Of a stretch of DNA of 21,715 bases, positions 2,341 to 21,596 are shown in pieces. The notes beneath the pieces are model-generated. The model saw nothing but the letters and a program-made list of their open reading frames with translations. It was not told the origin of the DNA and searched no databases. The stretch's first letter is position 1. Each line of letters starts with the position of its first letter. The position numbers were made by a program, and so were the translations under genes. The stretch is from a virus. The stretch covers positions 1 to 21,715 of the IMG/VR virus record IMGVR_UViG_3300010885_060967; one strand, written 5' to 3'.

Positions 2341-2956
2341 CCGCACTAAGGTTCGTTAGCGTCTGGATACGTATTGTATAATCAATCTGTATCTGTCTGT
2401 TCAAACTCTTTTGCACCGGGTGAAATATTACATGGGTAATCAGACGCAAATCCGTAGCACTTCCGTTCCATGTTTTAAGCCCTAATTCGTCAAACACATA
2501 TTCTCCGTTGAAGTTTGTGCTGTTATCAAACGCCTGTTGCCCGGGCGGTTCGCCGTAGTCTAACAAGCATGTTACCAAAATATCTGTGTAAACTTTGCCG
2601 GATGTGTGTAACACTGTCATTTTGTTGTTGGCAGTATCAGTATCGGCAGCAGAATTATCATCTACCACTTTGGCATAGGTTTCGTTGTACAATGTAGCAT
2701 TTTGCCCGGTGGTGTTGGGTGGCAAGTATGTAATAATACCTGTTGGGTCCACGCTGGATCCGCCATTGCCAAATGCCATTTCGTATATCCATCCGCCGCC
2801 TTGAGCAGATGTACGATCACTCAGCGTTTGAGCCATTGCATAAGATATGTTTTCGTAATGAATTGCATTCTTTTTATCTACCAATATTTCACCGGTAGCA
2901 GGATCGTGGATTTTTACAAATCCTTCAATTTTGGCCAGTCCGGGCTGAATTATCAT
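2336..2956 (-). CDS. Conserved T4-like phage structural protein (206 aa)
   Basis: The product is a soluble protein without signal peptide or membrane segments. It opens with the block I-E-G-F-V-K-I-H-D-P-A-T-G-E-I-L-V-D-K-K-N-A-I-H-Y-E-N (residues 10-36). It continues with F-G-N-G-G-S-S-V-D-P-T-G-I-I-T-Y (about 62-77), L-L-D-Y-G-E-P-P-G-Q-Q-A (about 131-142), F-D-E-L-G-L (about 155-160) and H-P-V-Q-K-S-L-N-R-Q-I-Q-I-D-Y-T (about 177-192). I recall this set of blocks from uncharacterised virion proteins encoded near baseplate and fibre genes of cyanophages and relatives. No enzyme motif is visible. The ATG overlaps the stop codon of the upstream 45-codon gene as ATGA and has GGAG eight bases before it, so translation is probably coupled. 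A connector or accessory role in the baseplate or fibres is inferred from position only. Confidence 0.8.
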   Translation of the reverse strand: MIIQPGLAKIEGFVKIHDPATGEILVDKKNAIHYENISYAMAQTLSDRTSAQGGGWIYEMAFGNGGSSVDPTGIITYLPPNTTGQNATLYNETYAKVVDDNSAADTDTANNKMTVLHTSGKVYTDILVTCLLDYGEPPGQQAFDNSTNFNGEYVFDELGLKTWNGSATDLRLITHVIFHPVQKSLNRQIQIDYTIRIQTLTNLSAA

Positions 2957-3090
2957 GCTCGCTTCTCCACTATGACTTCCTTGGTTGTTGGGTCAAAAAT
3001 ACGAATGTGCCCTTCAACAGAAATCGATCCTGTTTCATTAGGTTTCTTAGCCGGTTGCGCCGGCTGTTGTGGTTGTGTACTTTGATTCAT
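2953..3090 (-). CDS. Small protein (45 aa), truncated twin of the 206-aa protein N-terminus
   Basis: A 46-codon frame runs from ATG at 3090 to TGA at 2953. It sits in an otherwise unexplained gap between the giant gene and the 206-aa gene. It starts 16 bases after the giant gene's stop, has AAGG ten bases before the ATG, and overlaps the next ATG as ATGA. The first 21 residues are rich in Gln, Pro, Ala and Lys and look disordered. Residues 25-44 align without gaps to residues 10-29 of the next protein: 9 of 20 are identical, including E-G, D-P, the Thr, the Glu, the Val and the Lys, and about 7 more are conservative. The frame stops exactly where the longer protein continues N-A-I-H-Y-E-N. 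The tight packing and shared motif argue that it is a real gene. Its function is unknown. Confidence 0.65.
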   Translation of the reverse strand: MNQSTQPQQPAQPAKKPNETGSISVEGHIRIFDPTTKEVIVEKRA

Positions 3091-3106: not shown

Positions 3107-6100
3107 TTATCCGCCACGTAAAAACCTTGCGGCTCTGGTTTCGGTATCTTGCAATGCCACACCGTTACTTGGTGTGCCAGCACCGGGTGCATACCAAGTT
3201 ACTCCTCTGCGTACCAAAATAGTAACTTGTACGCCATCGGCAGGAGCAGTGTCAAATTCGATGGTTACTGGACTAGAATTGGTAATGTCGTAGCCGCTGG
3301 CTTGGAATGTTCCGCCAATATAAACTTCAACTACTTCTTGTATGGTAGCCGGACTCTGAAGATAATCCACAACAAGATTTTCTGCTACAAACACAGTGGT
3401 CGATCCGTCGCCTAATATAGGGTCAACAGCAGTATCGTTCTCAAGATTACTTACAACATAATTTTGATACTGTACTGGCAACAAGTTTCCGCGACTGATG
3501 TTGTATACGTCAGTTGCCGCAGTGTGGTCAGCAGCGGCTGTACCTGCTGTGCCTCGGCGCAGGCCGCTGACTGTGTTAGCCACGGTATCACGGTTACGGT
3601 ACATAATACGTTCACCATTGACTGTTAATAGTCCCCAAATATTAATTGGTAAATTTGGTTCGTTCAGTGCAGATGCATTATGTACATAAATTATGTCATC
3701 ATCTTTGCTCAAATCTTCTACTAGATAAGTTGTGGTTCCAGGAGTAATACGATACGTGGCCTGTACTCCTCGCATGTCTTGGAATATACGGAATGCCATT
3801 GCTTCTGGTGCAATACTGTTGGTGAACTCTGTAATTGTAACTACATCAGTTGGCGACATAATGTACCCGCCGGCTAATATTATTGTATCATTTACAATTG
3901 TAAAGTCATCGTACACAAATATTCGACGACCATTGAGTGTTACCCATAGGTTGTCTGGATTGACAATTGTTCTATTCAGATATAAATCATTGCGTGTGAC
4001 AGACTGCGAGGACGAATAATCGTACGATCCAGGGAAATTAGATACAAGTCCAACGTCATAATCGGTGCTGCTATACGGTTCTACAATTACTGCGGTGCCG
4101 GTGTTTGGACCAACATATACCTGTGTTAATATATCCTGTTGTCGGGTATCGTTCCAACTGGTCACTGCAATAACATCGCCGTTGACTGGCACAAGGCCGC
4201 CGGCAGGATTAAACAGTAACTGATTGCCAACTGCTATTGCCTGTGCGTTTGTTGTGACACAAATTAAAATTTTCTCACCCAGTGTCAACGGTGTTGTAAA
4301 CATTACAGCACGAGGTGTGATTGGATCATATGGCTCAACCATAAAGTCTACGCCTAACACCTGCGGAATATTGTTAACATATACGTGAACTTCATTGTTG
4401 GCAATGATTGATTGCGAGAACCCAAGACGTTGAGGTAACAAATAGTCTGTTGTGCCGTCGGCTAGATACTCGATACCAGCAGATGTTCTTGCCCGTAGTC
4501 CGTTGACTGTAATAACCAAGTTGTCTGGGTTGACATATTCCATGCTGTTGGTTAATGTGTACGTAGTTAATCCTGTTACTCCTGGAATGTATTGAGTAAC
4601 TGGCACAGACCAACTGTAGTCTACCGGAGTATTATCTACTGTGGTCGGACCAATGGCACCAATCATCAAATAATCGTTAATGGTGTAAGTGCTTCCAAAT
4701 AACAATTCTGTACTGGTACTACCGTATTGAACAAATGTATAGTCTGTGATTAATATGCCGTTGACAAAAATTACAAAATCAGTGATCAATGAGTACTGCA
4801 CAGGCACTACTAGACTATTTCCAATTTCTGCACCGTTGTATGAACGCTTGAACAATTGATTTCCGCCACCAATTTCGTACAGGGTGATTACTATTGCACT
4901 GCCTATTGCAATGCTTGAATCTAATGTGATAGTCTGTTCGGCCCAGTTTGCAGTGTACTCTAAACCAATGGTTAAATCAAGCCCAGTTGTCTGGTTTGTG
5001 ACTATCATTGTGGCAGGAACTGGTGCAATACCAGCAAAACTGTATGTTTCTCCTAAGGATCTAACTGTGAATTTCTGCACTTCAATTCTGAATCCATGAC
5101 CGTCACGTGCCCAATCTGCACCAGGCGTTGTGTAGACACGAATGTCTAGCGTGTCAAATTCGCTGCCAGGTACTAGTTCTTCTGGTGCATAACTTGAGTA
5201 TTGGTCAATGTATCCGCCGCCGTCAACATTGATACTGGTGGGTCTTGTCCCCAAATACGGGTCAGTGTACGGGCTTTCATAGATGGCATTTAGTATAGTC
5301 TGATCAAATGTTGGTCGACCTTCTGGACCATACTGTAAGTTATCAAACGGTGTAGAGTCAAAACTTCCAGCGGTACCATTGAATTTGTCAGTGTCAGGGT
5401 TTCTTGTGTACACAATAGTTGACACTGTTCCTGTACCTGCAGGCGGGCGGCCTGTGACTGGATAATCATATGCTTTCCAATTTGCTGTGAATGTTGTTCC
5501 AACATTGTTGTTTATGGCACCAAACAGAACAAAATCAGTGGTGCCAACCGTGACAATCGTATAAATCTCTCCTAAGAGAATTAAATTAGGTGCTAATACC
5601 AGTGTTGACTCTGAAGATTTCCATAGCACATCAAATCCAGGATATTGATCATACCCAACCCCGTATACTTGAACACCTGGGTATTCAACGCCATCGATCA
5701 GCAACGGCAAACTCAGCCCTGGTTCGTTGACAGCAGGAGCATAGAAGCCCATGGTACGATCAACGCCTGTTAGTAATCCAGCATTTACTTCTATCCACTG
5801 TGATGGATCAAATGTAGCACTCTGGACACTAGAACTGTCACCGCTGTCTGCTTCCCATACACGGTCTGCATATCTAACCTGTGTTCCGTTATCGTAGGGC
5901 ACATTTGCTTGCCACTCAACAACAGTGGAGAAGTATTCATACCTGTCATATTTTATAGTGGTTTTAATTTGACGAATCAAATTATTTCCCATAACTGCTA
6001 CCGCAGTGGCGCCTGTTCCGGTGCTATCCACAAATGTTATCACCGGAGTGGTTACATATCCACTGCCAGGTTCTATTAGATTAACACCAATTATTCGTCC

Positions 6101-9100
6101 AGCACTGTTGACCACAGCAGTCATTTCTGCTGGAGTAATGCAATTGCCAGTGACCAACACTGTTGTACCAAGACTGTAACCAGCGCCGGTGTTAGTTACA
6201 AACACAGACTGCACAGTTAGTGTGTAGTTATTGTACCACTCTGCCCATGGATTTTCTGTCCATATTATAGCAGTTGGTTCTGTGTCAGCATCGTAATTGG
6301 TTTTGCTATTGGCACTTGATGCAGTGTAAGGCAATAAAATAGGACCAATGAATTGAGGTACTGTTAATGTCCCGTCCCAGAACGCAGGATTGTCAAAGTC
6401 AGTCAACATGCCTTGGTAAGCATCGTTACCATCGTACGACAGATTAAACTCACGAATTTGAGTGTGGTAAGGCTTGACCTCTTGGATGTAATTCAATACA
6501 AAGTCCTGATTGTCTTGACGATATGATTGATAAGGAATCAAATTACGAATTTTGTGAGTAACATCGATTAAACTGGTTTTTAACAACCAGTCTGGAGCAG
6601 AAAATTCACTCATAATAAATTCAAACATCAAAATCAACGCACGATTTCGGTTAATTGCCAATTCATCAATAAACAACTGTTGATTAACTGCTTGAACTAT
6701 TTTACGTGTTTCAATCACTGGTTCTTGGTCAAAGTACTGTGCATCAAATACTTCAACGTCGAATCCAAAATTACCAAGTGAGTAGTTCCACAACTCTGCA
6801 CTAAATTCAATTGTGCCATCTTCGAGCCCAACACGATCCCAACTTGTAAGTGTACGCTGATAAATTTCGTACTTGCCAGCCGGTGCATTAGACACTTTGA
6901 CACTGGATCCCACAGGTGCAATAGCAATTGTCAGCCCGGACAGCCCTGCATAATTTGTAACAGTTGCAACAGGATTTAATGTGCTGTCGTAACCGGGTGC
7001 ATACCAATTAATATAAGACCAATAACGGCTTGTGTCGTAATTTTGTACACGTATCAGTGTTAATTCTTTTGTTCCGACGGCTAGGCCTGGCATAACTTCG
7101 TATATGGTCCAGAACCCCGAATTACTCGAGTCTACTGCAACCAAATAACGGTATCCAACGGGTACAAGCACTAGATTTTGATAGCCTAGTTCTGTTAAAT
7201 CTGCAACACGTATGTTCCAAGCACCGCTGCCTGCGGCTGGCTCTGGTTCTCTTGAGTTGAGCAGAGTAAAACTCTTTGTTTCAGATATTGGATAATTTGC
7301 CAGGATTCGATTTGTATATCCAAGGTAATTTTTCAATGCGTCAAAGCGGTCAACAAACATGCTCTGACGTGGTCTAAATTCAACGCCATATCGCTCTGCA
7401 GGACTTAGTGTTGGATCTGGCACAGGTGCACCAGTTATATTAACACCGCTCAGACTGTCTTGAAGTTTGAGGTACAAGTTAGCACTTAAGAAACTATCTG
7501 CCACTCCGTCTGCAATCAGTTCATATTCTTGGTGTACATTGTCGTCATTTTTAATACGGTCATATTCAACGTGCAAGATTGTGTCTTGTGCGGTGATCAA
7601 TGCATTTACGTTATACACGGCCACTGTACTGGAATTCAATGCTGCCAAGTAAGAAATACCACTGGATCTTGGGTTAAAGATATAATTGGCAATAGCAGTA
7701 GTACTTAATTTTTTACCTGCTGTAGTGTTTACTGTAGCAATGTCTCTTACCCAGTAATAATAGCGTGTTGCAAAAATATTATTAGTGTTGAGTTCAGAAC
7801 GTGTGGTATAACTCAACACACTGAGTGGCGTACCGGGACCTGTGTAGTTAACAGGGGTTACATCACTTTCAATCCATTGATAGATGTCTATACTGCTGCC
7901 AGGAAACACTTGGCCCCACCGGCGACTTGCATAAACAATATCATCTTGGTTAGGGTCTATAAAACGTACTGAGTTTGTATCCCACCAAATTTGACCCACT
8001 CTTGACGCATTCCACGGGTTGCCAACATTGTGTACGGGACCGTTATTGTAGTTTGCAGGGTCTACTGCACCAATGTAATCGATGTTTTCTCTAGCCACTC
8101 CAAGTATCTTGCCTTGCAATGGATCAATAAAATCCAAATATGATGTAATTGTAGATGCTAGTTTATCGTACATGTACACAGAATTTAACAACCCAACATC
8201 AACCACTGGCTGTTGTATGTGTTTGACAGTCCAAGCCGGTGTTCTATCTGCATTTTCAAATACACTAACACGACCAATATTAGAATTACTGCTGTCACCA
8301 AGGTCGCTGCCTGGAGATCCAACTAACAATCTTCCTGTAACATAACTAATGGCTGATCCATAAAGGTCAAGTTCAACAATGTCACTGTCGTACATTTGTT
8401 GACCAAATACAAATTGCCCTGGGTCCGTAACCGAGTCAGACGAGCTTGGCAAATAATCAAATGTGTATGCTACACCGCTCTGAATCAGCACAGTTGAGAA
8501 AATTGTACTACGATCATCAAAGTACGTTTCTCCATTGTCAAATGTGACTGGTTCGTATAAATTACCAGTCGGTGCACCAACCAACAGTGTAGTTGCATCT
8601 GTGTTGATGAACACTGTGGCGCCAAAATTTGCACCAAGTGTTGGGTTAGGACTTGTTATGGTCTGTGTATATGAATAATTTACAAAGCCAATGTCAACAA
8701 ATGCTGTACCAACAACTCCGGGCAAGACTTCAAGTCTTGTGTAAGGCAATGTGGCGGCAGCATTTATAACACTTAAAGTTAGTATACCAGAAACCACACG
8801 TATGATTGTGCCGCCCTCGGGAGCAATTGCAAAAGTAATAATACCGGTGGTATTATCGTAGGTGTAGTTGACATTAATTGTTTGCAATACACTGTTAATA
8901 TAAACCACAGTGGTATAACTAGCACACTGTGAATAGGTTACGCCAATATCAAATGTTTTTGTAGTGTTGGTTCCAACAAAGAACAGATCGTCGGACACTG
9001 TGGCCCGAATGTTGGGAATCCCAACTCCGTCGTTGGCATTATTAATAGCATCTGCTAGTCCTGCAAGTGTGTTGTCTGGGCTAGCAGGAACGGCTATTTC

Positions 9101-12100
9101 ATAATTGTCAATACGTAATGTGTCACCGGCTGTTAACGATGGATTGGCAATTGTAGATGTTATTACGCCGTACACCCGTGCTTGGTTTACATTACGTTGT
9201 ACACTTCCGGCAGCAACATACACAGTGCCGTCGGCCGGAGCTCCAATATAGACACTACAGTTATTTGGACATATATCAACTGCGGTACCAAACTGTGCTT
9301 CATCAAACGGAGATTTAATTGTAATTTGTTGGACTTCTTGGAATATGTTGCTTTCAATTTCAATTATATCACCAACTTCCAGAGTCAGATCACTAGACAA
9401 TACCACATTGCCGCCGGTTACAGTAAATTGTCCGTTAAGGAACTGACTACTATTCTGTAAGAAAGTATTATTAACCAACACCGAAACAGGTTGCGTATAT
9501 CCCACCGGCAATGCAAACGTTTTTGTAGTTGTTTCGCCAATGCCCACCTGATATCTTGCCACACTGCGATCGTACACATAGGTACTGCCCGAAATTAATG
9601 TATCGATTACATCTGTCGGTGCACCAATGACTACCTGGCGGCCGTCGGTTCCTGGGGATAGACTTGTTCCAAATCCAGATCCGACTGGCCCAGACAACAT
9701 GCCAGCATACTTGAAGTAGGTTCCGGTTTCAACAACAATATCACTGCCAGCAGGTGGATTAGACCCTACATTAAAAGTCAATGTGGTTCCTGCAAATGTA
9801 TAATCAATATATGGGCGCTGTAAAATGCTATTGACACTGACGCTGAAAGAGTTAATGTTGGTTGCAGTATACAGCACTGGTTGTAGGTCAAACACAGATG
9901 TATTTGACACACCTGAACCAGAATACGTAAATGCAGTTATTGCTCCAAGAGTAATTGCTGTGACTGTAATAGTTAAATTATTAGCCGGCGACGTTCCTCC
10001 CCCGATAGTGGCTGCATTTATAGTAAGCACTTCTCCGTTGGCGTAATTAACACCTGGAGTAGTTATTGAAACAGTGTATGTTCCACGGACACGGGCTACT
10101 GTAAATTTTGCTCCTGATCCAATTCCTGACGTTGAATTTTGTGAAACATTATAATACGTTTTAGCATCCAATGGCGCCAGCATATTTCGCAGTATTGCAA
10201 TTGGCAAGTCTTTAAGTGGCGGAGTATTAAATATTACCGCAGTTGAGCTTATATCGTAGTTAACTCCGTATTGCTGGATAACATTATTGACCAACACAGT
10301 GATTTGTTCTGGCTGGGCAAGATCAAATATTAAATTATTATCATAGTTAAACGACTCAGTAATACCATCACCAACGTAGTTAACATATTGAGTTTCTTCA
10401 TCTACACGGCCATATGCATACACTGTGTCAGAGTCAGGTGCACCAACATATGCCCAACGTTCATCTTTGCTTATTACCACCGAAGAGCCAAAGCTACCCA
10501 AATTTGAAAGATAATCGGGCGCAATTAACAATTGCGTTTGTAAAAATTTATTACTCGACGGTGATCGATAAATTACAACTGCATATCCAGCACCACTGTA
10601 ACTCAGGCTGGCACCAGCAATGGCCCAAGATTGATAGCCTATATCCAATGCGCTGCCATATCCTATTGTGCCAGGAGTAGTTAATTGTAGCAATGGATTT
10701 TCTTCATATATGCCATTCTGCCCACGCAGGTACGGGTATATTGCGCCAGTGTCACCGTACAACGGTGCACCGACTAGAGCCGCAATATTTTCATATGCTT
10801 GAGCAATGCTTGAACCGTAACCGGTATTCTCTAATGCAAGGTTTGTGTCGAGCGAATAACTTGGAGAAAACACATTTTGTTTTTCAAGAACTTCCCATAG
10901 TCCGGCGCCGTTGTTATCTACCCAGGCCAGTGCACCAGGAACCAACTCGTTGGCATAAGATAACTTACCAACATCGCTTGCTTGAGTAACACGCATTGTA
11001 TCCAGGTAGAATCCTAGCCCAGAGCCGACTATAGTAGTTTGATTACCGTTGGGAAATGTATAAGCAACAGTCAGGGTGGTTGGCTTGGGGGTTGTCAACA
11101 CGCGATATACGCCATTGAACGAATCATTGAAGAATCGAACAATCAACAAGTCTCCAACTTTTAAATTGTGTATTTGTGTGAATGACACCAGGCTGGTTCC
11201 GTCAAGGTTGTCAGTAACACGAGAAATTTTGCCCGGGGTTTGTGTAGCGCGATATACGTTCCAATCGTAGCTGTTAGTTTTAGCCACCCATATTCGTGTT
11301 CCGTTGCCTATATTGTCAAGGTTTGCAGAAATGTTAGTTGGATCGTCTAACGAAAACACAGTTATGTCAACATCGTTGATATTAACGTAGCCTGCACTTG
11401 GTAATGCAGTATCAGTGACTGATGTCGTAGTAGTTGTTAAAAAGCCAGGCGAGGATAGTTTGTAACTTTCGCGCCACAGATCACTGAGAAATATAGTTTG
11501 ATTTGCCAAACTTGTTTCTCCTGCTACCACTACCTGTACTGTGGAAGGATTACTCTGTAACAACGCTTCGTTCAATCGAAATTCAACAAAACTGCGATTT
11601 GCGTTTGCACCATATGTGCCGCGGCGCACTGCCCAGTTCTCGTAAATTTGATAGTCAGCAGTTTCTTTTCCAAGGTTAGCACCGGTGAATATTTCTGCAC
11701 TCAAGATTGTGCCTTTGGTCCCAATGAACTGTTTGTACAAGTTAACTTGACTTGTGTCGTCAAGGTTCAATGCTACCATGTACTCTCTTGGCTGGAAGCC
11801 GATCAAGCCATAGCTCAATAGATCGTTGTCGCTTTCAAGGTTGGCAGTTTGTGTATCGTAGCTGTTGGACAATTGATCTGCTTTGTTAGGAATATTAGGC
11901 AATAGTCCTTTTTGTATTTTGGTATAGTCACTCTTGACCCAGTCAGAATAGGCGAATTCCAACTTAGGCTGAATGATGCTTTGTGCAGACCAATAATTAT
12001 TTTTGTAGTTGACAATTTCGCCTTTGGCATACTTACGATTTGGGACCCACAACTGTACATTGTCTTGGTTGAGTACAAACCCTTGTGCATTTAACGTTCC

Positions 12101-15100
12101 GTTCCATTCTGTTGTGGTAAACGCTGAAACATAAATTCGATTCTGTCGTGCGCCAGTGGCTGAATTATAAATCAAGTCAGCAAAAATACTAACATTGTTT
12201 AGTATTATAATGTTTTCGTAATTGACAAATTGTATTTTTGCATAGGCAATTGATTGATCATTTGCACTGGTCACTGTGAATCTATTTTCTAATCGTTCAA
12301 TTATCAAGTTTCTAGCATCAAACGGTGTGCGATTTTGATCCAGTAACATGTTTTCGGGATTCTGCACAGTAATATTATCAACAACTGCACCAGGACGTTC
12401 TGCAGTCAATTGCAGTGCTGCCGGATTTAAATTGATCAAACTATCCACAGCCCAGCCTTGATTTGCCCAGTAAAGAAACTCGCGGGCCATCTGTTGCCAG
12501 TCCAGGGTGTAACCATTTTCTCGAGTGTCAAATATTAACCCTTGATATGTCAGGTATTGGCCGTAGCTCAGTAAAAAATCAACAACTGATGATTGATTTG
12601 TGAATACAAATCCATAGGGAACTTGTGTAATATCATTGGTATATTGCTTTGGCACACGCACTGTGCTGCCGCCGGCGCTGACTGTTTGTAACTGTCCACT
12701 GGGACGACTTGCAAAAATATTAAAATACGGATCTGTGGTACTGTAACCAAATACCGCATACCCTGCGTCGGTAAGTTGAATAATTACTGCGCTGTAAGCA
12801 ACCGATCCAAACGGTGAGTTTTTATACAACAACAAGTCATAGCTTTCATCTGGCAACAGCAGGCTTGAATTCAAACTGTTAGGGCTTGATCGTTCTGTGT
12901 ATATTTTGAGATATTGCTTATCTGTAAAACTGCCAGTTCTCCAACACAACCGAACGTCAAGATTTGCCAGAGCATTTTCTAAAGTCTGTGTTGAGTTAAT
13001 ACCCAATTGTTGATTGTAGTCAACGATCCAGTTGATATAACTGGCTTTACTAACAGGGGTAACAACCCCTGTTGATATGTTAACGTGGCCGCCATATACT
13101 TGTACACCTTGTGCATCTAGTCGGTAGCGGTTGTTGTAAAGGTACTGCTGAAATTCAGTGCTGTACTTGTAAAGATCTCTGTCAGCAAACAAACTAAAGA
13201 ATTTTGCAGGCCGAGTCAGGGCCAATAATCGCATAACAGCAAACGGGTAACTACTGCTTGACCACCATGCGGCCTCTGCAGGGCCGCCATCACCAACAAC
13301 CCAACTCTTGCGCCAGGCATTGGGATCGTACTGTCCAACTACACTGTTGAGAGGTGCCAGCAACTGCCCTTCTGTGCCCGTGGGTATAAAGTATGTTGAC
13401 AAGTTTGGTCGTACAAATTCAGGTCGTACAAAATGACCGTCTGGATCTGCAACAACACCGGCCTGGATGTCGTCCCATAATACCAAGTTATCTTGTGTGT
13501 ATGGTGCTGGACCATAGCGTGTTTCCCACCAAGTTGGCTTCTGGCTAAATCCCAACATTTCCCACGGTGTATAATTGGGATTCAATGTGTCATAAAAATA
13601 CCTGCTGATGCCGCGCCAGGCGCCTAGTAGAGGTAGATTTTTTTCTTTGTCGCCTGCTTGACTATAGTTGTAGGTAAATGCATTGTTGGCAATGTATTGC
13701 TGAGTTTTATAATCTATTTTGTTTTGTCCTACCCAGGTCAAAAAGCTCTCACCTAAGATAGTTGTAATCTCAGTCTGAGTGTAATCAGTAGTGCGGAAAT
13801 AGCCCGGAATCACTTCTTCCGGAGTTATCGGAACTGGATTACCTTCAGTTTTTAAGTTGTTAAAAATTCTACGTTCAAATTCCAACAGGATATCATCCCG
13901 TATATCACCAAACGCTGTAGTGATACTGCCATCATGTCCGCGAATGACCACAGTTGGATTTACATAATTTTCATCCACAAATATTTCTGGCTTGTACGAC
14001 TGGTACAATCCCATTTTAGTAGGTGTGTTGGGCACAAAATTGCCAGTGGTGTCGGCATATTCTCGCACTGTAATTTTATCGCCAACTGTCAACGTTGTTG
14101 TAATTGTAATTCTAGGACCATCTGTTGCAACAGTATAGTCATAATTCAACGTTAATAAAACATCGTTTAGATATACTAATAATCCCAGGAAATTTGCCGA
14201 AGTAAACGTATATGTTTGTAAGGTGTCGAACGTTCCGGTTGTAATTGGTGTTACGGTATACACAGTGTCTGTGTACACATTGCCGCTGGGCAGCATATCA
14301 CTGTAGAAAAAACTGTTTAGATTAGTTTTGCCTGTGTTTAGATCTGTAACAATAGAATCAAGAATTTGACTGGTAGTCAAATTTCCCCATTCGCTACGAA
14401 TAGAATTTTCCAATAATCTATTTTTAAATTTATTATATTCTCTATCATTGAACTCTAAAGACTTGAAAATATTATATTCACTGCTTCTCATAAAGAAGCC
14501 GGCCAGAGTCAATTGTGCACTCTGTTGTAGAATAACTGTGCCATAGCGTCCAATGTTGCCTAAGTCACGAGTGTTATTGGGTCCATTGATGTCTCCAACA
14601 AAGCTAATCAAGTTCTCAGCAATGCTTTCGTAATGTGTTCTTATGGTGCCTAATGTAAACTCAGGGCTGTTGATATTAAATGGATTATTGGCCAAATTAA
14701 TTGGCACCTGGTAAAACCCGTTATCACTGGCTTCATTGCTTAAGACCTGCACTTCTATCAATGATCCCGGAGCATAAATGTTGCTTAACACAATTGTAGT
14801 AACAGTAGAGGTACGTGTTACTGTGTAATCTGCTGGCAATATAAACTTGTTGGCCACAAACAGTTGAATTGCAGGCACCACAGTGTTGTCGGGTATATTG
14901 ATATTAAATTGTAAAGGAGATCCGTCGTATGTGAATTGGAACTGCTGACGAATCAAACTTGGCGTTTCTGCAACTTGCCATCCCAGTTGTCGTTGATACA
15001 ACACCCGATTTTGATATTGGTATGCAAATCCTGTGCTTGTTTTATTAGTGATGGCAGAATTACCAACAACGTATATAAAGGTGTCAGAATAGAAATTATT

Positions 15101-17734
15101 ATCAAATACAATGTCACCAATGTTATTTAAACTTAAATAACGCAATGGCAGACCTAGCACAGCGTCGGATGCGCCGTTTCCAACGGCATAACTAAATAAT
15201 TTACTACCGATAAATGTAGTACTTGGATATTTAATAGGATCGCTGAAACTGACTCCGTCTACATCGTAGATGTCAAACAATGGTGCCTGGTTTGTTTTTG
15301 TTTTTTGCTGTGCTGATATCCACTCAACTCCGTCAAAGTAATAGCTTATTCCTTGTTGTACTAGGCCATTAAGGCTGACTACTGTTTGATTGACCAACAC
15401 TTCAGAATCTGACGCAGGCACCAAGTTAATGATGGGTTCTGCAATCAATGGCACCTGGGTGTCCGGTGTGATAAAATTCACAACATAGATTTTATTTCTA
15501 ACTTGTGGATCCGAGTCTGCTGCAAAAATTACGCGAGTACCTTCAACAAAATCATAACCATCAATCCCGTAGCCAGGCGATCCATTTATTGTACTCATTG
15601 CGTCTGTTGCACTGAAATCAACAATGTTAACTGGTTGCTTTCCTTGTGTGCCAAACCCAAACAGGCGTGTTCCTGCGTAAAACTCAATGATAGGACGTTT
15701 GGCACGTTGCAAATTGTTTAATACTGGTACAGTGTTATTATAAGAGGCTGCGGCTGTGATTACATCAATGTGAAACCAGCGATTGCCGCGTGACCACGCA
15801 TTGAGATCTGGGCTTGCACGATTAATCGTAAGGTATTCCGGGAGTAGTGGTGCATTCAGTGTGTAATCAAAATTTCCATCATCATATGGTAAACTATCAA
15901 AGGGAATAGGAGAATTTTGAGTGTAGGGTTCGGGCGTGACAAAATTTACAACTGGCAATAATTTAATTGCAGTGCCTACACCTTCAACATAGTATTCTTG
16001 ATTTTCATACTCGGCAGGCACAGTAGTGCCACGGAATTGAACTTTGAGACCATTGGTGAATATCACTCCATTTGAGCTTGTATAGGTTTGTTTTCCAATG
16101 ATGTCTTCAATATACGTTGTAGTTGCATTGGTTTGATCAATGAGGCGTATTTGTCCGAATATCTCAGGATCAGTTCCATCTTGATAAAACAACAAATCTT
16201 TAATTGCAGTTAGTAACGGAATCTCTTCAAGGTACCCAGCCTGATTTTTATACCAGCCAGTGTTGGAGTATTGAATTCCAAACGCAATAGAAAACTTTTC
16301 TAAATTTGCAATTGGTAATATTTCATTTAACTGAATGTATTGTTGGCCGCCCGATGATGTTATATAGTTTATCTGCCAGACACTATATCTCTGAGCTTGT
16401 GTGAGAGGAGTGGCCTGAGCAAATGTTGTGCTGTCAAAAGTTCCGATTCCCGTGCCCGAGCTTGGCAAGGGATCAAATTGAGAAATATTTTCCCATCCGT
16501 TGTTGCCGGTGGTTGTGTTAAGGAATACTAACGTTCGCCCGTTTAAATTAGTAATGCCATCAATTCCAGATGGATTGGCTGCAAAAAAGTCTGACAGGAA
16601 AACATTGTTAATTTGACTAAATGTTAAATTAGTAGCCAGGTCAACCGTCCCAATACTGGTCAGGCCATAATAAAAACTTTGTGCGGTGGCCAATGGCACA
16701 TCAAATTCCACTGAGCCAAGATCTTCGCCGTTGTTGGTTACTCCCAACACATCTCTGCTGGAGATGTTTGGTGCCCACGGCAGCACACCCTCAATACCGG
16801 GTTCTGCTTGAATCCAAAATCCTGGGCCAGTGCCCGGAGTTCCATCAATGATTGACAGCATACCTTGCATGTTAAATTGTGTTTCACTTGCATAGTATAA
16901 CTGGTCAGGTGCATCTTGAGGCACAGTAAATGTGATATTTCCAGTGTTTGCTCCGTTACGGCTTACTCCATTATTATATGGATCTGTGCGCCCTTGAGTT
17001 GGAGCTGTTTTAATCCAGAATGGCGATACTACGTCAAGATTCAGATTGAATACATAGGTATTGCCGCGAACCAATGTCAGAGACGGGTTTGGTACATAAT
17101 CAATAATGTATGCTGATGTGCTATTAGCAGTGACACGGTAATTTACTGTCTCTTTGGAATTTTGTGCTACGTTAAATGTGTAATTGCCGGTGCGTAATAG
17201 TGTCAACGTGGGATTAGTACCGTTATATCCAGAAAAAGTATATACTCCGTTTTCTCGAGTGACAGTGTATTCTGCAGTTAACGGAACTGCTGTGCCGCCA
17301 ATGTTAACGGCCAATGGCCCGGCTGACAACCAATAGTACTGACTGTAATTTACAAATTTATCAAAATTAATTTGTGGATCCCAGGTGTAGTATTCACTGG
17401 TATAAAGTCTATCACTTTGATCAACAAATGCACCTTGTGTAGACAATGCATCACTGATGCCCGGGTATGTGATGGCATCTTTGACTGTGTCTGAATCGGT
17501 TTTCCTAAAAATAACGCCGGGTTCAAGTTGATAATCTGTGCGAGTCTGCGTGGGCTCAACAACATATTTGTCGTCGGCATTGACACCAGGACCCACTCTG
17601 CGGCCAACATATCCTTGTGTCTTTTTAAACTGCGGTTCTTGAACCAATTGATCTAATGTAGCAGATAAAAATTGCTTATTAGTGGAGGTTTGAAATATTT
17701 CTGGTAAAAAATCTACCGTTCTCACTTTTGCCAT
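3107..17734 (-). CDS. Giant multidomain baseplate/tail structural protein (4875 aa), in the gp7 position
   Basis: This unbroken frame occupies two thirds of the window. The ATG shares one base with the gp6 stop (TAATG) and has GGAG seven bases upstream. The N-terminus (V-D-F-L-P-E-I-F-Q-T...F-L-S-A-T-L-D-Q-L-V-Q) and the C-terminus (G-V-T-W-Y...A-A-R-F-L-R-G-G) match ends I recall from very long structural proteins of cyanophage-like myoviruses. In order I see: cupredoxin-like repeats (about 200-360); K-T-x-T-N-Q-A-P-L-F-D (about 805-820); R-G-H-D-G-S plus a helical R-D-D-I-L-L-E-F-E-R-R (about 1255-1290); P-W-E-M-L-G-F (1391-1397); a CBM5/12-like module (1896-1932); seven FG-GAP repeats (2306-3141); a helical block P-D-W-L-L-K-T-S through E-V-K-P-Y-H-T (about 3665-3765); a second CBM-like module (3941-3980); and a C-terminal run of beta modules (about 4239-4846). 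T4 places gp7 (1032 aa) after gp6, but no direct gp7 similarity is evident. The baseplate role is inferred from position. Confidence 0.85.
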   Translation of the reverse strand: MAKVRTVDFLPEIFQTSTNKQFLSATLDQLVQEPQFKKTQGYVGRRVGPGVNADDKYVVEPTQTRTDYQLEPGVIFRKTDSDTVKDAITYPGISDALSTQGAFVDQSDRLYTSEYYTWDPQINFDKFVNYSQYYWLSAGPLAVNIGGTAVPLTAEYTVTRENGVYTFSGYNGTNPTLTLLRTGNYTFNVAQNSKETVNYRVTANSTSAYIIDYVPNPSLTLVRGNTYVFNLNLDVVSPFWIKTAPTQGRTDPYNNGVSRNGANTGNITFTVPQDAPDQLYYASETQFNMQGMLSIIDGTPGTGPGFWIQAEPGIEGVLPWAPNISSRDVLGVTNNGEDLGSVEFDVPLATAQSFYYGLTSIGTVDLATNLTFSQINNVFLSDFFAANPSGIDGITNLNGRTLVFLNTTTGNNGWENISQFDPLPSSGTGIGTFDSTTFAQATPLTQAQRYSVWQINYITSSGGQQYIQLNEILPIANLEKFSIAFGIQYSNTGWYKNQAGYLEEIPLLTAIKDLLFYQDGTDPEIFGQIRLIDQTNATTTYIEDIIGKQTYTSSNGVIFTNGLKVQFRGTTVPAEYENQEYYVEGVGTAIKLLPVVNFVTPEPYTQNSPIPFDSLPYDDGNFDYTLNAPLLPEYLTINRASPDLNAWSRGNRWFHIDVITAAASYNNTVPVLNNLQRAKRPIIEFYAGTRLFGFGTQGKQPVNIVDFSATDAMSTINGSPGYGIDGYDFVEGTRVIFAADSDPQVRNKIYVVNFITPDTQVPLIAEPIINLVPASDSEVLVNQTVVSLNGLVQQGISYYFDGVEWISAQQKTKTNQAPLFDIYDVDGVSFSDPIKYPSTTFIGSKLFSYAVGNGASDAVLGLPLRYLSLNNIGDIVFDNNFYSDTFIYVVGNSAITNKTSTGFAYQYQNRVLYQRQLGWQVAETPSLIRQQFQFTYDGSPLQFNINIPDNTVVPAIQLFVANKFILPADYTVTRTSTVTTIVLSNIYAPGSLIEVQVLSNEASDNGFYQVPINLANNPFNINSPEFTLGTIRTHYESIAENLISFVGDINGPNNTRDLGNIGRYGTVILQQSAQLTLAGFFMRSSEYNIFKSLEFNDREYNKFKNRLLENSIRSEWGNLTTSQILDSIVTDLNTGKTNLNSFFYSDMLPSGNVYTDTVYTVTPITTGTFDTLQTYTFTSANFLGLLVYLNDVLLTLNYDYTVATDGPRITITTTLTVGDKITVREYADTTGNFVPNTPTKMGLYQSYKPEIFVDENYVNPTVVIRGHDGSITTAFGDIRDDILLEFERRIFNNLKTEGNPVPITPEEVIPGYFRTTDYTQTEITTILGESFLTWVGQNKIDYKTQQYIANNAFTYNYSQAGDKEKNLPLLGAWRGISRYFYDTLNPNYTPWEMLGFSQKPTWWETRYGPAPYTQDNLVLWDDIQAGVVADPDGHFVRPEFVRPNLSTYFIPTGTEGQLLAPLNSVVGQYDPNAWRKSWVVGDGGPAEAAWWSSSSYPFAVMRLLALTRPAKFFSLFADRDLYKYSTEFQQYLYNNRYRLDAQGVQVYGGHVNISTGVVTPVSKASYINWIVDYNQQLGINSTQTLENALANLDVRLCWRTGSFTDKQYLKIYTERSSPNSLNSSLLLPDESYDLLLYKNSPFGSVAYSAVIIQLTDAGYAVFGYSTTDPYFNIFASRPSGQLQTVSAGGSTVRVPKQYTNDITQVPYGFVFTNQSSVVDFLLSYGQYLTYQGLIFDTRENGYTLDWQQMAREFLYWANQGWAVDSLINLNPAALQLTAERPGAVVDNITVQNPENMLLDQNRTPFDARNLIIERLENRFTVTSANDQSIAYAKIQFVNYENIIILNNVSIFADLIYNSATGARQNRIYVSAFTTTEWNGTLNAQGFVLNQDNVQLWVPNRKYAKGEIVNYKNNYWSAQSIIQPKLEFAYSDWVKSDYTKIQKGLLPNIPNKADQLSNSYDTQTANLESDNDLLSYGLIGFQPREYMVALNLDDTSQVNLYKQFIGTKGTILSAEIFTGANLGKETADYQIYENWAVRRGTYGANANRSFVEFRLNEALLQSNPSTVQVVVAGETSLANQTIFLSDLWRESYKLSSPGFLTTTTTSVTDTALPSAGYVNINDVDITVFSLDDPTNISANLDNIGNGTRIWVAKTNSYDWNVYRATQTPGKISRVTDNLDGTSLVSFTQIHNLKVGDLLIVRFFNDSFNGVYRVLTTPKPTTLTVAYTFPNGNQTTIVGSGLGFYLDTMRVTQASDVGKLSYANELVPGALAWVDNNGAGLWEVLEKQNVFSPSYSLDTNLALENTGYGSSIAQAYENIAALVGAPLYGDTGAIYPYLRGQNGIYEENPLLQLTTPGTIGYGSALDIGYQSWAIAGASLSYSGAGYAVVIYRSPSSNKFLQTQLLIAPDYLSNLGSFGSSVVISKDERWAYVGAPDSDTVYAYGRVDEETQYVNYVGDGITESFNYDNNLIFDLAQPEQITVLVNNVIQQYGVNYDISSTAVIFNTPPLKDLPIAILRNMLAPLDAKTYYNVSQNSTSGIGSGAKFTVARVRGTYTVSITTPGVNYANGEVLTINAATIGGGTSPANNLTITVTAITLGAITAFTYSGSGVSNTSVFDLQPVLYTATNINSFSVSVNSILQRPYIDYTFAGTTLTFNVGSNPPAGSDIVVETGTYFKYAGMLSGPVGSGFGTSLSPGTDGRQVVIGAPTDVIDTLISGSTYVYDRSVARYQVGIGETTTKTFALPVGYTQPVSVLVNNTFLQNSSQFLNGQFTVTGGNVVLSSDLTLEVGDIIEIESNIFQEVQQITIKSPFDEAQFGTAVDICPNNCSVYIGAPADGTVYVAAGSVQRNVNQARVYGVITSTIANPSLTAGDTLRIDNYEIAVPASPDNTLAGLADAINNANDGVGIPNIRATVSDDLFFVGTNTTKTFDIGVTYSQCASYTTVVYINSVLQTINVNYTYDNTTGIITFAIAPEGGTIIRVVSGILTLSVINAAATLPYTRLEVLPGVVGTAFVDIGFVNYSYTQTITSPNPTLGANFGATVFINTDATTLLVGAPTGNLYEPVTFDNGETYFDDRSTIFSTVLIQSGVAYTFDYLPSSSDSVTDPGQFVFGQQMYDSDIVELDLYGSAISYVTGRLLVGSPGSDLGDSSNSNIGRVSVFENADRTPAWTVKHIQQPVVDVGLLNSVYMYDKLASTITSYLDFIDPLQGKILGVARENIDYIGAVDPANYNNGPVHNVGNPWNASRVGQIWWDTNSVRFIDPNQDDIVYASRRWGQVFPGSSIDIYQWIESDVTPVNYTGPGTPLSVLSYTTRSELNTNNIFATRYYYWVRDIATVNTTAGKKLSTTAIANYIFNPRSSGISYLAALNSSTVAVYNVNALITAQDTILHVEYDRIKNDDNVHQEYELIADGVADSFLSANLYLKLQDSLSGVNITGAPVPDPTLSPAERYGVEFRPRQSMFVDRFDALKNYLGYTNRILANYPISETKSFTLLNSREPEPAAGSGAWNIRVADLTELGYQNLVLVPVGYRYLVAVDSSNSGFWTIYEVMPGLAVGTKELTLIRVQNYDTSRYWSYINWYAPGYDSTLNPVATVTNYAGLSGLTIAIAPVGSSVKVSNAPAGKYEIYQRTLTSWDRVGLEDGTIEFSAELWNYSLGNFGFDVEVFDAQYFDQEPVIETRKIVQAVNQQLFIDELAINRNRALILMFEFIMSEFSAPDWLLKTSLIDVTHKIRNLIPYQSYRQDNQDFVLNYIQEVKPYHTQIREFNLSYDGNDAYQGMLTDFDNPAFWDGTLTVPQFIGPILLPYTASSANSKTNYDADTEPTAIIWTENPWAEWYNNYTLTVQSVFVTNTGAGYSLGTTVLVTGNCITPAEMTAVVNSAGRIIGVNLIEPGSGYVTTPVITFVDSTGTGATAVAVMGNNLIRQIKTTIKYDRYEYFSTVVEWQANVPYDNGTQVRYADRVWEADSGDSSSVQSATFDPSQWIEVNAGLLTGVDRTMGFYAPAVNEPGLSLPLLIDGVEYPGVQVYGVGYDQYPGFDVLWKSSESTLVLAPNLILLGEIYTIVTVGTTDFVLFGAINNNVGTTFTANWKAYDYPVTGRPPAGTGTVSTIVYTRNPDTDKFNGTAGSFDSTPFDNLQYGPEGRPTFDQTILNAIYESPYTDPYLGTRPTSINVDGGGYIDQYSSYAPEELVPGSEFDTLDIRVYTTPGADWARDGHGFRIEVQKFTVRSLGETYSFAGIAPVPATMIVTNQTTGLDLTIGLEYTANWAEQTITLDSSIAIGSAIVITLYEIGGGNQLFKRSYNGAEIGNSLVVPVQYSLITDFVIFVNGILITDYTFVQYGSTSTELLFGSTYTINDYLMIGAIGPTTVDNTPVDYSWSVPVTQYIPGVTGLTTYTLTNSMEYVNPDNLVITVNGLRARTSAGIEYLADGTTDYLLPQRLGFSQSIIANNEVHVYVNNIPQVLGVDFMVEPYDPITPRAVMFTTPLTLGEKILICVTTNAQAIAVGNQLLFNPAGGLVPVNGDVIAVTSWNDTRQQDILTQVYVGPNTGTAVIVEPYSSTDYDVGLVSNFPGSYDYSSSQSVTRNDLYLNRTIVNPDNLWVTLNGRRIFVYDDFTIVNDTIILAGGYIMSPTDVVTITEFTNSIAPEAMAFRIFQDMRGVQATYRITPGTTTYLVEDLSKDDDIIYVHNASALNEPNLPINIWGLLTVNGERIMYRNRDTVANTVSGLRRGTAGTAAADHTAATDVYNISRGNLLPVQYQNYVVSNLENDTAVDPILGDGSTTVFVAENLVVDYLQSPATIQEVVEVYIGGTFQASGYDITNSSPVTIEFDTAPADGVQVTILVRRGVTWYAPGAGTPSNGVALQDTETRAARFLRGG
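3197..5020 (-). repeat. C-terminal cluster of V-N-x-x-x-Q / D-Y beta modules in the giant protein
   Basis: This stretch encodes about residues 4239-4846. About six diverged copies of a 40-45-residue module fit the pattern V-h-V-N-x-x-x-Q...x-D-Y-T...I-x-F...P-x-x-G-x-x-I-x-I. Clear examples are F-V-I-F-V-N-G-I-L-I-T-D-Y (about 4318), V-H-V-Y-V-N-N-I-P-Q-V-L-G-V-D-F (about 4446), W-V-T-L-N-G-R-R-I-F-V-Y-D-D-F (about 4595) and V-E-V-Y-I-G-G-T-F-Q-A-S-G-Y-D (about 4801). Similar modules occur in many phage tail and fibre proteins and look like small beta-sandwich spacers. Between the last two copies sits another recurring phage module (V-N-G-E-R-I-M-Y-R-N-R-D...L-R-R-G-T-A-G-T). Confidence 0.65.
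5777..5932 (-). other. CBM5/12-like carbohydrate-binding module, copy 2 (giant protein)
   Basis: This encodes about residues 3935-3986. The aromatic pattern W3941-x5-Y3947-x2-G3950-x2-V3953-x-Y3955-x4-W3960-x-A3962, with a closing W3980, matches the spacing of chitin-binding CBM5/12 domains. It has the same spacing as the copy near residue 1896. In a baseplate protein such a module could touch cell-surface glycan or be purely structural. Confidence 0.5.
8255..10819 (-). repeat. Seven FG-GAP-type repeats (probable interrupted beta-propeller) in the giant protein
   Basis: This encodes about residues 2306-3160. Seven segments begin with Phe/Tyr-Gly at residues 2306, 2359, 2415, 2688, 2815, 3037 and 3125. 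Each reaches a G-A-P-like triplet (G-A-P in five, G-A-S and G-S-P in the others) 17 to 19 residues later, and five of the seven use exactly 19. This is the FG-GAP signature of integrin-alpha-type propellers, and seven is the usual blade number. The intervals are 53, 56, 273, 127, 222 and 88 residues. The three long ones hold inserted beta modules such as I-T-V-L-V-N-N-V-I-Q and V-S-V-L-V-N-N-T-F-L-Q. The canonical D-x-D-x-D-G calcium loop is not seen in any blade. Confidence 0.7.
11924..12067 (-). other. CBM5/12-like carbohydrate-binding module, copy 1 (giant protein)
   Basis: This encodes about residues 1890-1937, with W1896-x5-Y1902-x2-G1905-x2-V1908-x-Y1910-x4-W1915-x-A1917 and a closing W1932. 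The spacing is identical to that of the second copy about 2045 residues later and to the CBM5/12 consensus as I remember it. It is followed directly by a block (L-L-P-N-I-P-N-K-A-D-Q, then Y-G-L-I-G-F-Q-P-R-E-Y-M) that I associate with this family of giant phage proteins. Confidence 0.5.
16655..17137 (-). repeat. Tandem cupredoxin-like block with apparent loss of copper ligands (giant protein)
   Basis: This encodes about residues 200-360. The first unit runs L-T-L-V-R-G-N-T-Y-V-F, S-P-F-W-I, N-N-G-V, F-T-V-P, L-Y-Y, then S283-x2-Q286-x2-M289. In the plastocyanin-like phage module I remember, these positions read H-P-F and C-x2-H-x2-M. Here the two His and the Cys are Ser237, Ser283 and Gln286, and only the Met remains. 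The second unit repeats F-W-I (306-308) and a gapless 26-residue stretch (331-356 versus 256-281) sharing G-V, N-G, G, F, V-P and Y-Y. The fold assignment is inference from motif order. Confidence 0.55.
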
Positions 17735-20700
17735 TAAATTACTCCGCTGCCTGGGGCAGTCTTAAGGTTTGTGCTTGTTAATGCTTCGATCACTTGGATG
17801 TCTGCCACTGTGGCAGCATTGACAAAAATTTCATTTGGAGCAGAACGTATTTCGTATAGGTCACCAAAACTCTTTTGTGGACTCAGTGGAACCAACACCA
17901 CCGAACTTACTACGTCGCCAATGTTTTGATGCAGGTATCCTGACAGCTCTGAGAAATAAAATGTATCTCCAAAATTCCAATTTTCAATTTCAAAATAACT
18001 GTTGATATAGGACACCACTAGACTTTTTATTTCACTAACAGATGCAGTAGATCCACTGGCACGAATAACTTTGATTGTTGCACGTAGCTCTGCCGCGGCC
18101 TTGGCACCAAACAAAGGTTTAAATGTCACTGAATTAATAATCATATTATCAGAAATCATTTTATAGTCTTGCAATCCTGCATACTCAGAAGTTAATGTGT
18201 CAATAGACGGAGTGTCTGGTTTTGGAATTGCCCCGGTGGAGTCCACAATGTAATTTCTATATGCGGTATAATATGCCTGAGTCACTACATATATGTCAAT
18301 GATATTAGTTGATCCGGGGTCGATGCGATTTGTCAATGGACTATTGTGTCTATATTGAAAATACAGTCCTTGACGACCTACTCGAGTAATATACTCTGTT
18401 GTAAGATTCAGCACAGTTGTACCCGATGTAGTCAACACTAAAACATAAAACGCTGGATCAGTGGTATAGGTATTTGTTATACTGTCAAAAACACCATATG
18501 CATAAAATACTTGGCCAGGCACATATTGTGCTTTTTCTACTTCAATGTCATCAAGCGTAGAATATTGATCGTTGACAATTCCCGGTTCTACCAACAAATA
18601 TCTTTCAAGATTGTCAAAGTCTACTACTTGCTGAAAGAATACACGTTTAGTAGTTGAGTTCACAGTGGGTGCAACAATTGTATCAAAGAAATCTGGATCA
18701 TCTGGCACGCCATCAGCATCACTATCTTGCCAGGACACCAGGACCTGATAATCGTCAACGTAACCGTCGGGCTGTACCGGCTGATCAATGATACGCATTG
18801 TGATGTCACCGTCAAGTGGTAAATTTGAATCGGGTCTACTGTTGGTTTTTAGAACTTTGACAAAGTCTCGAATAGTCGTGCCTGTTCGGCTATCGTAAAT
18901 TTGTTCGTCACCGTAGAAGAAGAAACGTGTTTGTAATACACTGCCAAAGTAATAGTTCAATGCTCGTGTAGTAACAGTGTATGATTCGCCGTCGGTAATA
19001 AATTGCACAAACCAACTGGCATCTAGGTTTGCTCCGGATGTGTCTCCTGCATAGGCCTGACTCCAAGGTGCATTGATTGCAAGATTATTTGATGTAATCA
19101 AGTACCATTCATTGGTTAAGTTGTTATAACCCAATCCAAAATCACGATATAACTCAATCTGTGACAATGCGCTAGTACGCACATCAGTTCCTAAGTCTGT
19201 TATGAACAATGGTATAACTTGATTGCACACAGCACCGGAAGGAACATAGTTATTAAGAACCACTGGACCAAGTCCGTTGCTAAAATTGCCTGCACCTTGG
19301 TTTGTTCCGTCGACATATATGGCTGTGGCTGATGCCCATATTATTAATTTTTCGTCCGGCCTAGTAGGAACACCCAATGCTAATTTATTATTAACATCAA
19401 AATAATAACCAGTAGGTGGCACAAACTTAATTAGGCTGCCTGTTTGTACATACTTCATATTGTTACTGGCGTAAACTCCCACAGAAACAGGAATGCCGGC
19501 TGCATTTTTAAAGTAGCCTGTGGTTTCGTTAGACAAAGTGGTGCTTTGATTCCATGTCACTGCCAGGGACAACAATGATGGACGAGGATAATTAGCGTAG
19601 TAAAATTGTTTGGCAGCATCGCCTGTTAGTCTTGTTTCAACTTGATTGGTAATAACATCACTGATTTCGTTGGTTGTCAACCAACTAAACAAAAACGTTG
19701 GCAACACATTGTATTCGTACAGTGCGCCATCACTGGCAAATGTATTGGTAGAAGAATATTTTCCAGTGTTGTCTACTAGATCAAGATATCGGCTTGTGCC
19801 AATTGATGCACGATTCAATGCTTTAGATTTGATGATTGAATTGTAGGACGTGAACGGAAAGTTGTTGTAATCTTCACCGTTGACCATACGGTTTTGCGTG
19901 TAGTAACGTGCAGGTGCACGTTGCTTGATTTCGGCAAGCGTTTCACGTGCCAGTGCATTACTCACAGGTTCAGTGATACCACAAATCATTGTGAGCGTTT
20001 CTAATTGTCCAGAACGACTGACGTAACTGATGCTTAGTATTACGTTTTGCATTTCTTCCGGATTGATAATATACTGTAATCCATTACTTGCACGGACATA
20101 AGCACGGAATAAGCCAACTGGAATTTCTGAAAATACTCCGTCACCAAAGTTCATAGTGATCTGATCACTTGCTCTACTAGACACTGAGTACAGCGGGCGC
20201 AATGCTGTTTGTTGCTCAACTGCGGCAGTGTACACGCTTTCTACAAACTCCCACTCGCGAGCAACTGTGCCAACGTTGTCTAATTGATACAACCAGCGAT
20301 CGGTGTTGTTAACGCCTTCGATGTTGATGTTGACAGCTCGGTTGGCAATGCGCTCGGGCAAGTTAAAATCTTGATTTTGCAGTACACCTTGTTTGAACAG
20401 GAAGAAGAAGCCGGTGTTGTCAGACGCAAATCCCAATTGATCGTTGCGGAACAACATGTTAAATTGTCCGTTGGGACGTGGACTGGGTTCGTATACGTAG
20501 CCGCGGCCACTGGCAGTAGAACTGACTGCTTCAAACGGCATATTAACGCCGTCGACTACAGCACTGTAGGGTATCACTGGCAAAAAGCCTGGCAACAAAT
20601 TAATTGTATATTCGTCTGTGCGTATACCGTTGATGGTAGTTCTATTACCTGGGCGCCCATAACGCTGTGTATTGATCAAGGCAGCATTTATAATGGCAGT

Positions 20701-21221: not shown

Positions 21222-21596
21222 TTAGGCGTAACTGGCACTACGAGTTTGCTGATCAAAATACAGTGTTAAAAACTGTGTTGTTTGGCCTGGCACCATTGTC
21301 AGTGCTATTTGCACAAGTATACCATTGTCTTGTGGGAACATCTCAGCAGATTCAATGTAAATTCTTGGATCTAAACTGGCCACACGATTTATTTCTGCCA
21401 GTATTGCTCGCTCAGTATCCTGTGTTTGATTTTCAAACAGGTAACTCCAAATCACTGTGCCGTACCCAGGACGGCCTACTAGTTGTCCCTGCTGTATGTT
21501 GAATGCATTCAGCAAATCTCTCTTGACCAATTCAAAGTCCACCAGAGTAAACTTTTTTGGCTGACCAATTGTGTTAAAACCTATAAATGTTGTCAT
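21222..21596 (-). CDS. 25: Baseplate wedge protein gp25 (gp25-like lysozyme fold), 124 aa
   Basis: This is the T4 gp25 homologue (132 aa in T4), a small wedge protein that helps anchor the sheath end to the baseplate inner ring. It is conserved in contractile systems, including type VI secretion (TssE). Recognisable parts are an N-terminal arm (G-F-N-T-I...K-K-F-T-L-V-D), an amphipathic helix (E-L-V-K-R-D-L-L-N-A-F, residues 22-32), G41-R-P-G-Y-G, F-E-N-Q-T (54-58) and the end F-D-Q-Q-T-R-S-A-S-Y. The family's E-P-R triad appears as D76-P77-R78, the form I recall from cyanophage gp25. The ATG lies eight bases after the preceding stop codon. The ribosome binding site is weak (AGG 12 bases upstream, inside the previous gene), so coupling to the upstream gene is likely. 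Confidence 0.95.
   Translation of the reverse strand: MTTFIGFNTIGQPKKFTLVDFELVKRDLLNAFNIQQGQLVGRPGYGTVIWSYLFENQTQDTERAILAEINRVASLDPRIYIESAEMFPQDNGILVQIALTMVPGQTTQFLTLYFDQQTRSASYA

Follow-up and report, generated by a model that had tools for sequence, protein, structure and literature searches.

A predicted seven-bladed FG-GAP propeller within a scaffold hairpin of a giant gp7-position virion protein of uncultivated jumbo phages

Background

How might a repeat ring of the kind seen in the head of integrin alpha chains come to lie within a structural protein of a phage tail, and what could it do there? This question is raised by 21,715 bases of DNA that represent part of an uncultivated virus (IMGVR_UViG_3300010885_060967; the whole fragment is hereafter called the window), in which an original prediction had read the stretch 8255-10819 as seven FG-GAP repeats forming a beta-propeller that is split by inserted domains and belongs to a phage baseplate protein. 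All coordinates given below for the three baseplate-region genes and for parts of the giant protein refer to the minus strand.

A giant protein in the position of gp7

The repeats lie in an open frame at 3107-17734 that encodes a giant virion protein of 4875 residues, assigned to phrog_10938 (virion structural protein) by a match of 1080 bits. Directly upstream of it is the gene for a gp6-like baseplate wedge protein (17734-21168; phrog_10646 and phrog_219, baseplate wedge subunit), for which tblastn gave matches in 67 phage records, and beyond this lies the gene for another wedge protein (21222-21596; phrog_43, baseplate wedge subunit, E 4e-8), which from gene order and general knowledge we take to be gp25-like. 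The end of the gp6-like gene and the start of the giant gene have base 17734 in common, which suggests that their translation is coupled. The product of 1002-2285 matches tail-fibre families, and the giant gene stands just before such fibre-like genes.

Homologs of the giant protein are present in RaK2, PA5oct, Atu_ph07, Phosso, SCTP-2 and Munch, and in PA5oct, RaK2, Atu_ph07, Phosso and Munch the gene likewise follows that for a gp6-like protein. RaK2 ORF070, PA5oct gp355 and Atu_ph07 gp180 share both this gene position and a homologous scaffold on either side of the propeller; for the PA5oct protein the annotation records detection by mass spectrometry. T4 gp7 also follows gp6 in gene order, but the window protein is almost five times longer and has neither a gp7 Pfam domain nor a profile match to it: the Gp7_helical, 5th and 6th domains, on which T4 gp7 itself scores 100-160 bits, are absent from the giant protein, and a T4 gp7 homology was rejected when profile alignment gave no match. 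The designation as a baseplate protein is thus borne out for the protein as a whole by its place in the gene order behind the gp25-like and gp6-like proteins and by the detection of homologs in virions, whereas for the propeller itself a location on the particle is an extrapolation. A tblastn search of isolated phages with the propellers of the window and of a compact form gave no match, and as no isolated phage with the propeller was found at this level of sequence similarity, the virion evidence comes from relatives that lack it.

Seven repeats and their predicted fold

The repeat count was reproduced in the translation, in which 8255-10819 corresponds to residues 2306-3160. All seven [FY]G starts (residues 2306, 2359, 2415, 2688, 2815, 3037 and 3125) reach a GAP, GAS or GSP triplet, with motif lengths of 19, 18, 19, 19, 19, 19 and 17 residues, of which exactly five are of 19 as had been counted; the three long gaps (2415-2688, 2688-2815 and 2815-3037) are of 273, 127 and 222 residues, again as claimed. 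The motif, profile-profile comparison and a blade scan agree on blades 1 (10763-10819, residues 2306-2324), 3 (10436-10492, residues 2415-2433), 5 (9236-9292, residues 2815-2833), 6 (8570-8626, residues 3037-3055) and 7 (8312-8362, residues 3125-3141), and for blade 4 (9617-9673, residues 2688-2706) Pfam concurs with all three. Blade 2 (10607-10660, residues 2359-2376) is diverged, ends in GAS, and is identified by its motif and by the blade profile in relatives.

In its strict form the motif occurs 6 times in the giant protein, while 2000 shuffles contained none in 1502 cases and never more than 4. The Pfam family FG-GAP_2 (PF14312) matched residues 2180-3200 with 39.0 bits against a cut-off of 23, the whole giant protein with 26.8 bits, and 11 of 11 aligned orthologs; the classical calcium-loop FG-GAP family (PF01839) had no match in the record at E<=0.001. 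Profile-profile comparison found repeats 1 and 3-7 to be mutually homologous, with probabilities of at least 63% for 14 of the 15 pairs, the exception being pair 3-7 (23%). Repeat 2 was too diverged for this comparison (at most 14%) and fell below threshold in a stricter blade scan; its reading as a blade comes from the relatives of intermediate form and from the predicted structure. A profile of the blade, made from enlarged-family sequences and refined on the whole set of 197 proteins, recovered 952 repeats in their propeller region, with no match in their other 726,080 residues or in shuffled inserts. The best profile matches in the PDB were almost all to integrin alpha, non-significant when taken alone (E 0.075-0.22).

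Structure prediction for residues 2290-3165, which had been proposed as a check, gave a confident, nearly all-beta model in which all seven segments show the four-strand pattern of FG-GAP blades. This AlphaFold2 model used 105 homologs (pLDDT 92.5, pTM 0.90); one made with only 11 close orthologs reached a pLDDT of 37.6 and was discarded. Foldseek returned 196 PDB matches at E<=0.001, and integrin alpha made up 32 of the top 50 solved matches, most of the others being propellers. Whole-chain TM-scores were low, with a target TM of no more than 0.38 for integrins, plausibly since no single superposition can accommodate the extra domains. Among predicted structures the best matches included viral FG-GAP-type proteins with target TM of 0.60-0.80, such as proteins of Megaviridae and Pithovirus that bear the name FG-GAP, Harvfovirus proteins and an Atu_ph07 'hemagglutinin'. 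The last (A0A2L0UZX4, BFVD) is a separate protein of 393 residues resembling the propeller with a target TM of 0.70, and could be either a donor of the propeller or a parallel case. From the confidence of the model, the strand pattern and the fold matches we infer a closed seven-bladed ring. The integrin-alpha-type reading is upheld by the model, by the integrin-alpha fold matches and by compact relatives that lack the three swellings, and the structural unit, comprising the propeller and its extra domains, is slightly wider than first noted, spanning about residues 2286-3167 (8234-10879).

Point of insertion and extra modules

The edges of this unit coincide with two strands of a scaffold hairpin. 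At the left edge, residues 2280-2285 (WEVLEK, 10880-10897) align with the WAVA and WKVY strands of relatives, and at the right edge, according to the alignment and the model, stands the second strand, residues 3168-3173 (WTVKHI, 8216-8233). The flanking scaffold aligns on both sides, and not across the propeller, with the proteins of RaK2, PA5oct, Atu_ph07, Phosso, SCTP-2 and Munch, in none of which the blade profile found a match (0 of 6 checked). The hairpin turn is of 5-6 residues in PA5oct and in relatives L192-L196 and L219, and the same two strands are about 880 residues apart in the window protein; hence the propeller is a single insertion that as a whole replaces this short turn. The long inserts of Atu_ph07, Phosso and others had been entertained as alternative contents of the hairpin site, an idea given up when several relatives proved to carry these residues upstream of the hairpin and outside its turn. 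A reading by eye of the SCTP-2 region as a LamG-like lectin was likewise dropped, as Pfam found nothing there.

In the strand map of the model the swollen gaps carry beta modules. The expectation that these would be displayed on the rim holds in so far as extra domains are present, but all three insertions leave from the same loop, the one joining strands C and D, in blades 3, 4 and 5, and in propeller topology the C-D loops occupy a single face, close to its outer edge, and are not spread all around a rim. Insertion 1, in blade 3 (about residues 2446-2671, 9722-10399), comprises three beta modules and is marked by a blade 3-4 spacing of about 271-273 residues, where compact relatives have a median of 52. 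Roughly two thirds of the family possess its middle module (residues 2526-2612, 9899-10159; alignment occupancy 0.63-0.77), which one relative (L028) cleanly lacks; the fibronectin matches of a PDB sequence search (E 0.013) fall on this insertion. Insertion 2, in blade 4, occupies about residues 2731-2788 (9371-9544) in the model. Insertion 3, in blade 5 (about residues 2853-3018, 8681-9178), is read as a split flagellin-IN-like module: its unsplit counterpart in the intermediate relative L232 matches Flagellin_IN (PF07196) with 25.0 bits against a cut-off of 22.7, and the interrupted copy of the window scores 9.3 bits. The interrupting nested module (about residues 2919-2983, 8786-8980), which roughly half of the family carry, weakly resembles DUF2460 and the T7 tail-fibre N-terminal domain, with matches under the curated cut-offs.

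A further module lies outside the propeller. About 88 residues at 5363-5626 (residues 4037-4124), absent from the close relatives compared, contain a small module, YTIVTVGTTDFVLFGAINNNVGTTFTA, whose type occurs 39 times in 32 of the 197 giant proteins, at many positions and nine times inside the propeller insert, as if it were a cassette spread within the gene. In two relatives (L010 and L011) about 54 extra residues of the same cassette type interrupt the propeller before blade 5. The carbohydrate-binding family CBM_5_12 gave weak, sub-threshold matches to two stretches of the window protein, including 5849-5917 (residues 3940-3962), and weak matches also in SCTP-2, Atu_ph07 and L253.

Evolutionary history

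Pattern scans recovered at least 580 relatives of the scaffold, and about 200 loci were among the matches listed for viral contigs. Where the propeller is present it takes several forms, distinguished here by blade positions from the last profile iteration, at a laxer threshold than that of the scan giving 952 repeats. Compact forms have 485-582 residues at the insertion site, with up to seven repeats at ordinary spacing (medians of about 52, 55 and 59 residues for blades 3-4, 4-5 and 5-6). Intermediate forms have about 680-720 residues, with module-sized extra sequence in each of these three gaps (medians 116, 124 and 143). In the enlarged family, with medians of 268, 129 and 216, the site holds 712-1029 residues in 110 of 110 unique sequences, each with five or more repeats that the blade profile recognises, and invariant residues of the insert are retained across 105 sequences.

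A tree of the scaffold separates propeller-bearing proteins from the others and gathers the enlarged forms in one clade, each with a support of 1.0 (FastTree local supports, midpoint rooting). A single gain of the propeller, followed by enlargement through one module insertion after another, is the probable course, an order that depends on the rooting. Growth was not strictly one-way: a compact form (L223) lies inside the intermediate clade, and long forms (L245 and L199) occur among compact ones. The inserts of L245 and L265 reach 1241 and 1330 residues with few recognisable blades, which may be read as further enlargement or as loss of repeats. Compared in segments of 75 residues, the propeller has an identity of about 0.63-0.82 and its flanks one of 0.84-0.91, a sign of faster divergence in the propeller; entire phage lineages lack it, and its modules are gained and lost.

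Function and alternative explanations

Taken together, we consider it probable that the propeller was inserted in a hairpin turn of a baseplate-wedge scaffold, acquired modules in blades 3-5, and serves as an accessory platform. In this scheme residues 2286-3167 would constitute an integrin-alpha-type seven-bladed FG-GAP propeller, set as one unit in the turn of a beta-hairpin, with blades 3, 4 and 5 predicted to bear additional beta modules that separate the third strand from the fourth, one of these modules being interrupted by another. The propeller would stand off the wedge on its hairpin stalk, repeated around the tail; its blades would act as a rigid support, and the exchangeable modules of one face would touch the surface of the host or bind fibre and spike proteins. 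Its faster divergence than the scaffold, its absence from whole lineages and the turnover of its modules point to an accessory part, likely a platform at the edge of the baseplate that serves adhesion or docking.

Two alternatives are the least likely. Segment 2 fails both profile-profile comparison and the stricter blade scan, and might then be a linker or a module, leaving six recognisable blades; this is very unlikely, given that the model assigns it four strands in the usual order (model residues 83-86, 91-96, 105-112 and 117-124) and that the second repeat of intermediate relatives scores as a blade, for instance LGFSIDSVDTVVAVGAPDSYNGAGYVLIYG in L232. A calcium-dependent receptor that binds its ligand on the top face in the manner of integrins is hardly credible, although Foldseek places the two in the same fold class: calcium-loop motifs of the DxDxD type in the A-B loops occur in 0-4 of 105 homologs at any blade, and the extra modules leave from C-D loops, which propeller topology places across the ring from the face where integrins bind their ligand.

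The other two alternatives concern the role of the propeller. That the modules hold phage proteins such as tail fibres, whiskers or spikes, making the propeller a docking hub without host contact, is a possibility that we take seriously while judging it the less probable course; it draws on the fibre-like genes that follow the giant gene and on the likeness of inserted beta modules to T7 tail-fibre N-terminal and DUF2460 sequences, a likeness that stays below the curated cut-offs. It is rather unlikely that the propeller is a mere bulky strut that enlarges the baseplate edge and has no binding partner of its own. Its widely varying length, the gain and loss of modules with the scaffold left undisturbed, and the existence of lineages without it would all suit such a part, but the repeats kept throughout the enlarged sequences and the invariant residues across 105 sequences suggest a maintained surface. 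An accessory platform for adhesion or docking remains our preferred reading, and we lean towards the broader view that the wedge carries an evolvable display platform, in which a propeller captured once received repeated insertions of small beta modules in the same loop of neighbouring blades, one of them a module within a module, and in which empty, compact, intermediate and enlarged states all survive.

Relation to known systems and implications

The window propeller and the integrin alpha head have seven FG-GAP repeats in common, and the latter supplies the top fold matches; integrin-type propellers can also take inserted extra domains, such as the integrin I domain. They differ in that the window propeller lacks calcium motifs, has no significant sequence similarity to integrin alpha, belongs to a viral baseplate protein and carries C-D insertions in three successive blades. 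In sequence it belongs with the FG-GAP_2 proteins of bacteria and large viruses, whose viral members are among its best predicted-structure matches, but those are other proteins, whereas here the propeller sits in a baseplate protein and bears nested modules. RaK2-like giant proteins, with the same scaffold, differ in that the six checked gave no match to the blade profile, the site in PA5oct being a short turn. Propeller domains with known or proposed binding roles have been described on phage tails and spikes, namely phi11 gp45, PRD1 P2 and phiKZ gp131C (PMC6115969). These are separate receptor-binding or peripheral proteins, unlike an insertion in a wedge protein. The layout had been thought undescribed for a phage baseplate part, and in the literature searched we likewise found no paper combining FG-GAP, phage and baseplate. 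The fold is known, and its setting and architecture are new. The locus and its relatives offer a natural series in which a repeat ring was captured by a virion protein and then enlarged inside it, and show that a hairpin turn of the baseplate wedge can accept about 900 residues. They also indicate that jumbo phages of a large, uncultivated group are likely to have a surface for host contact or docking.
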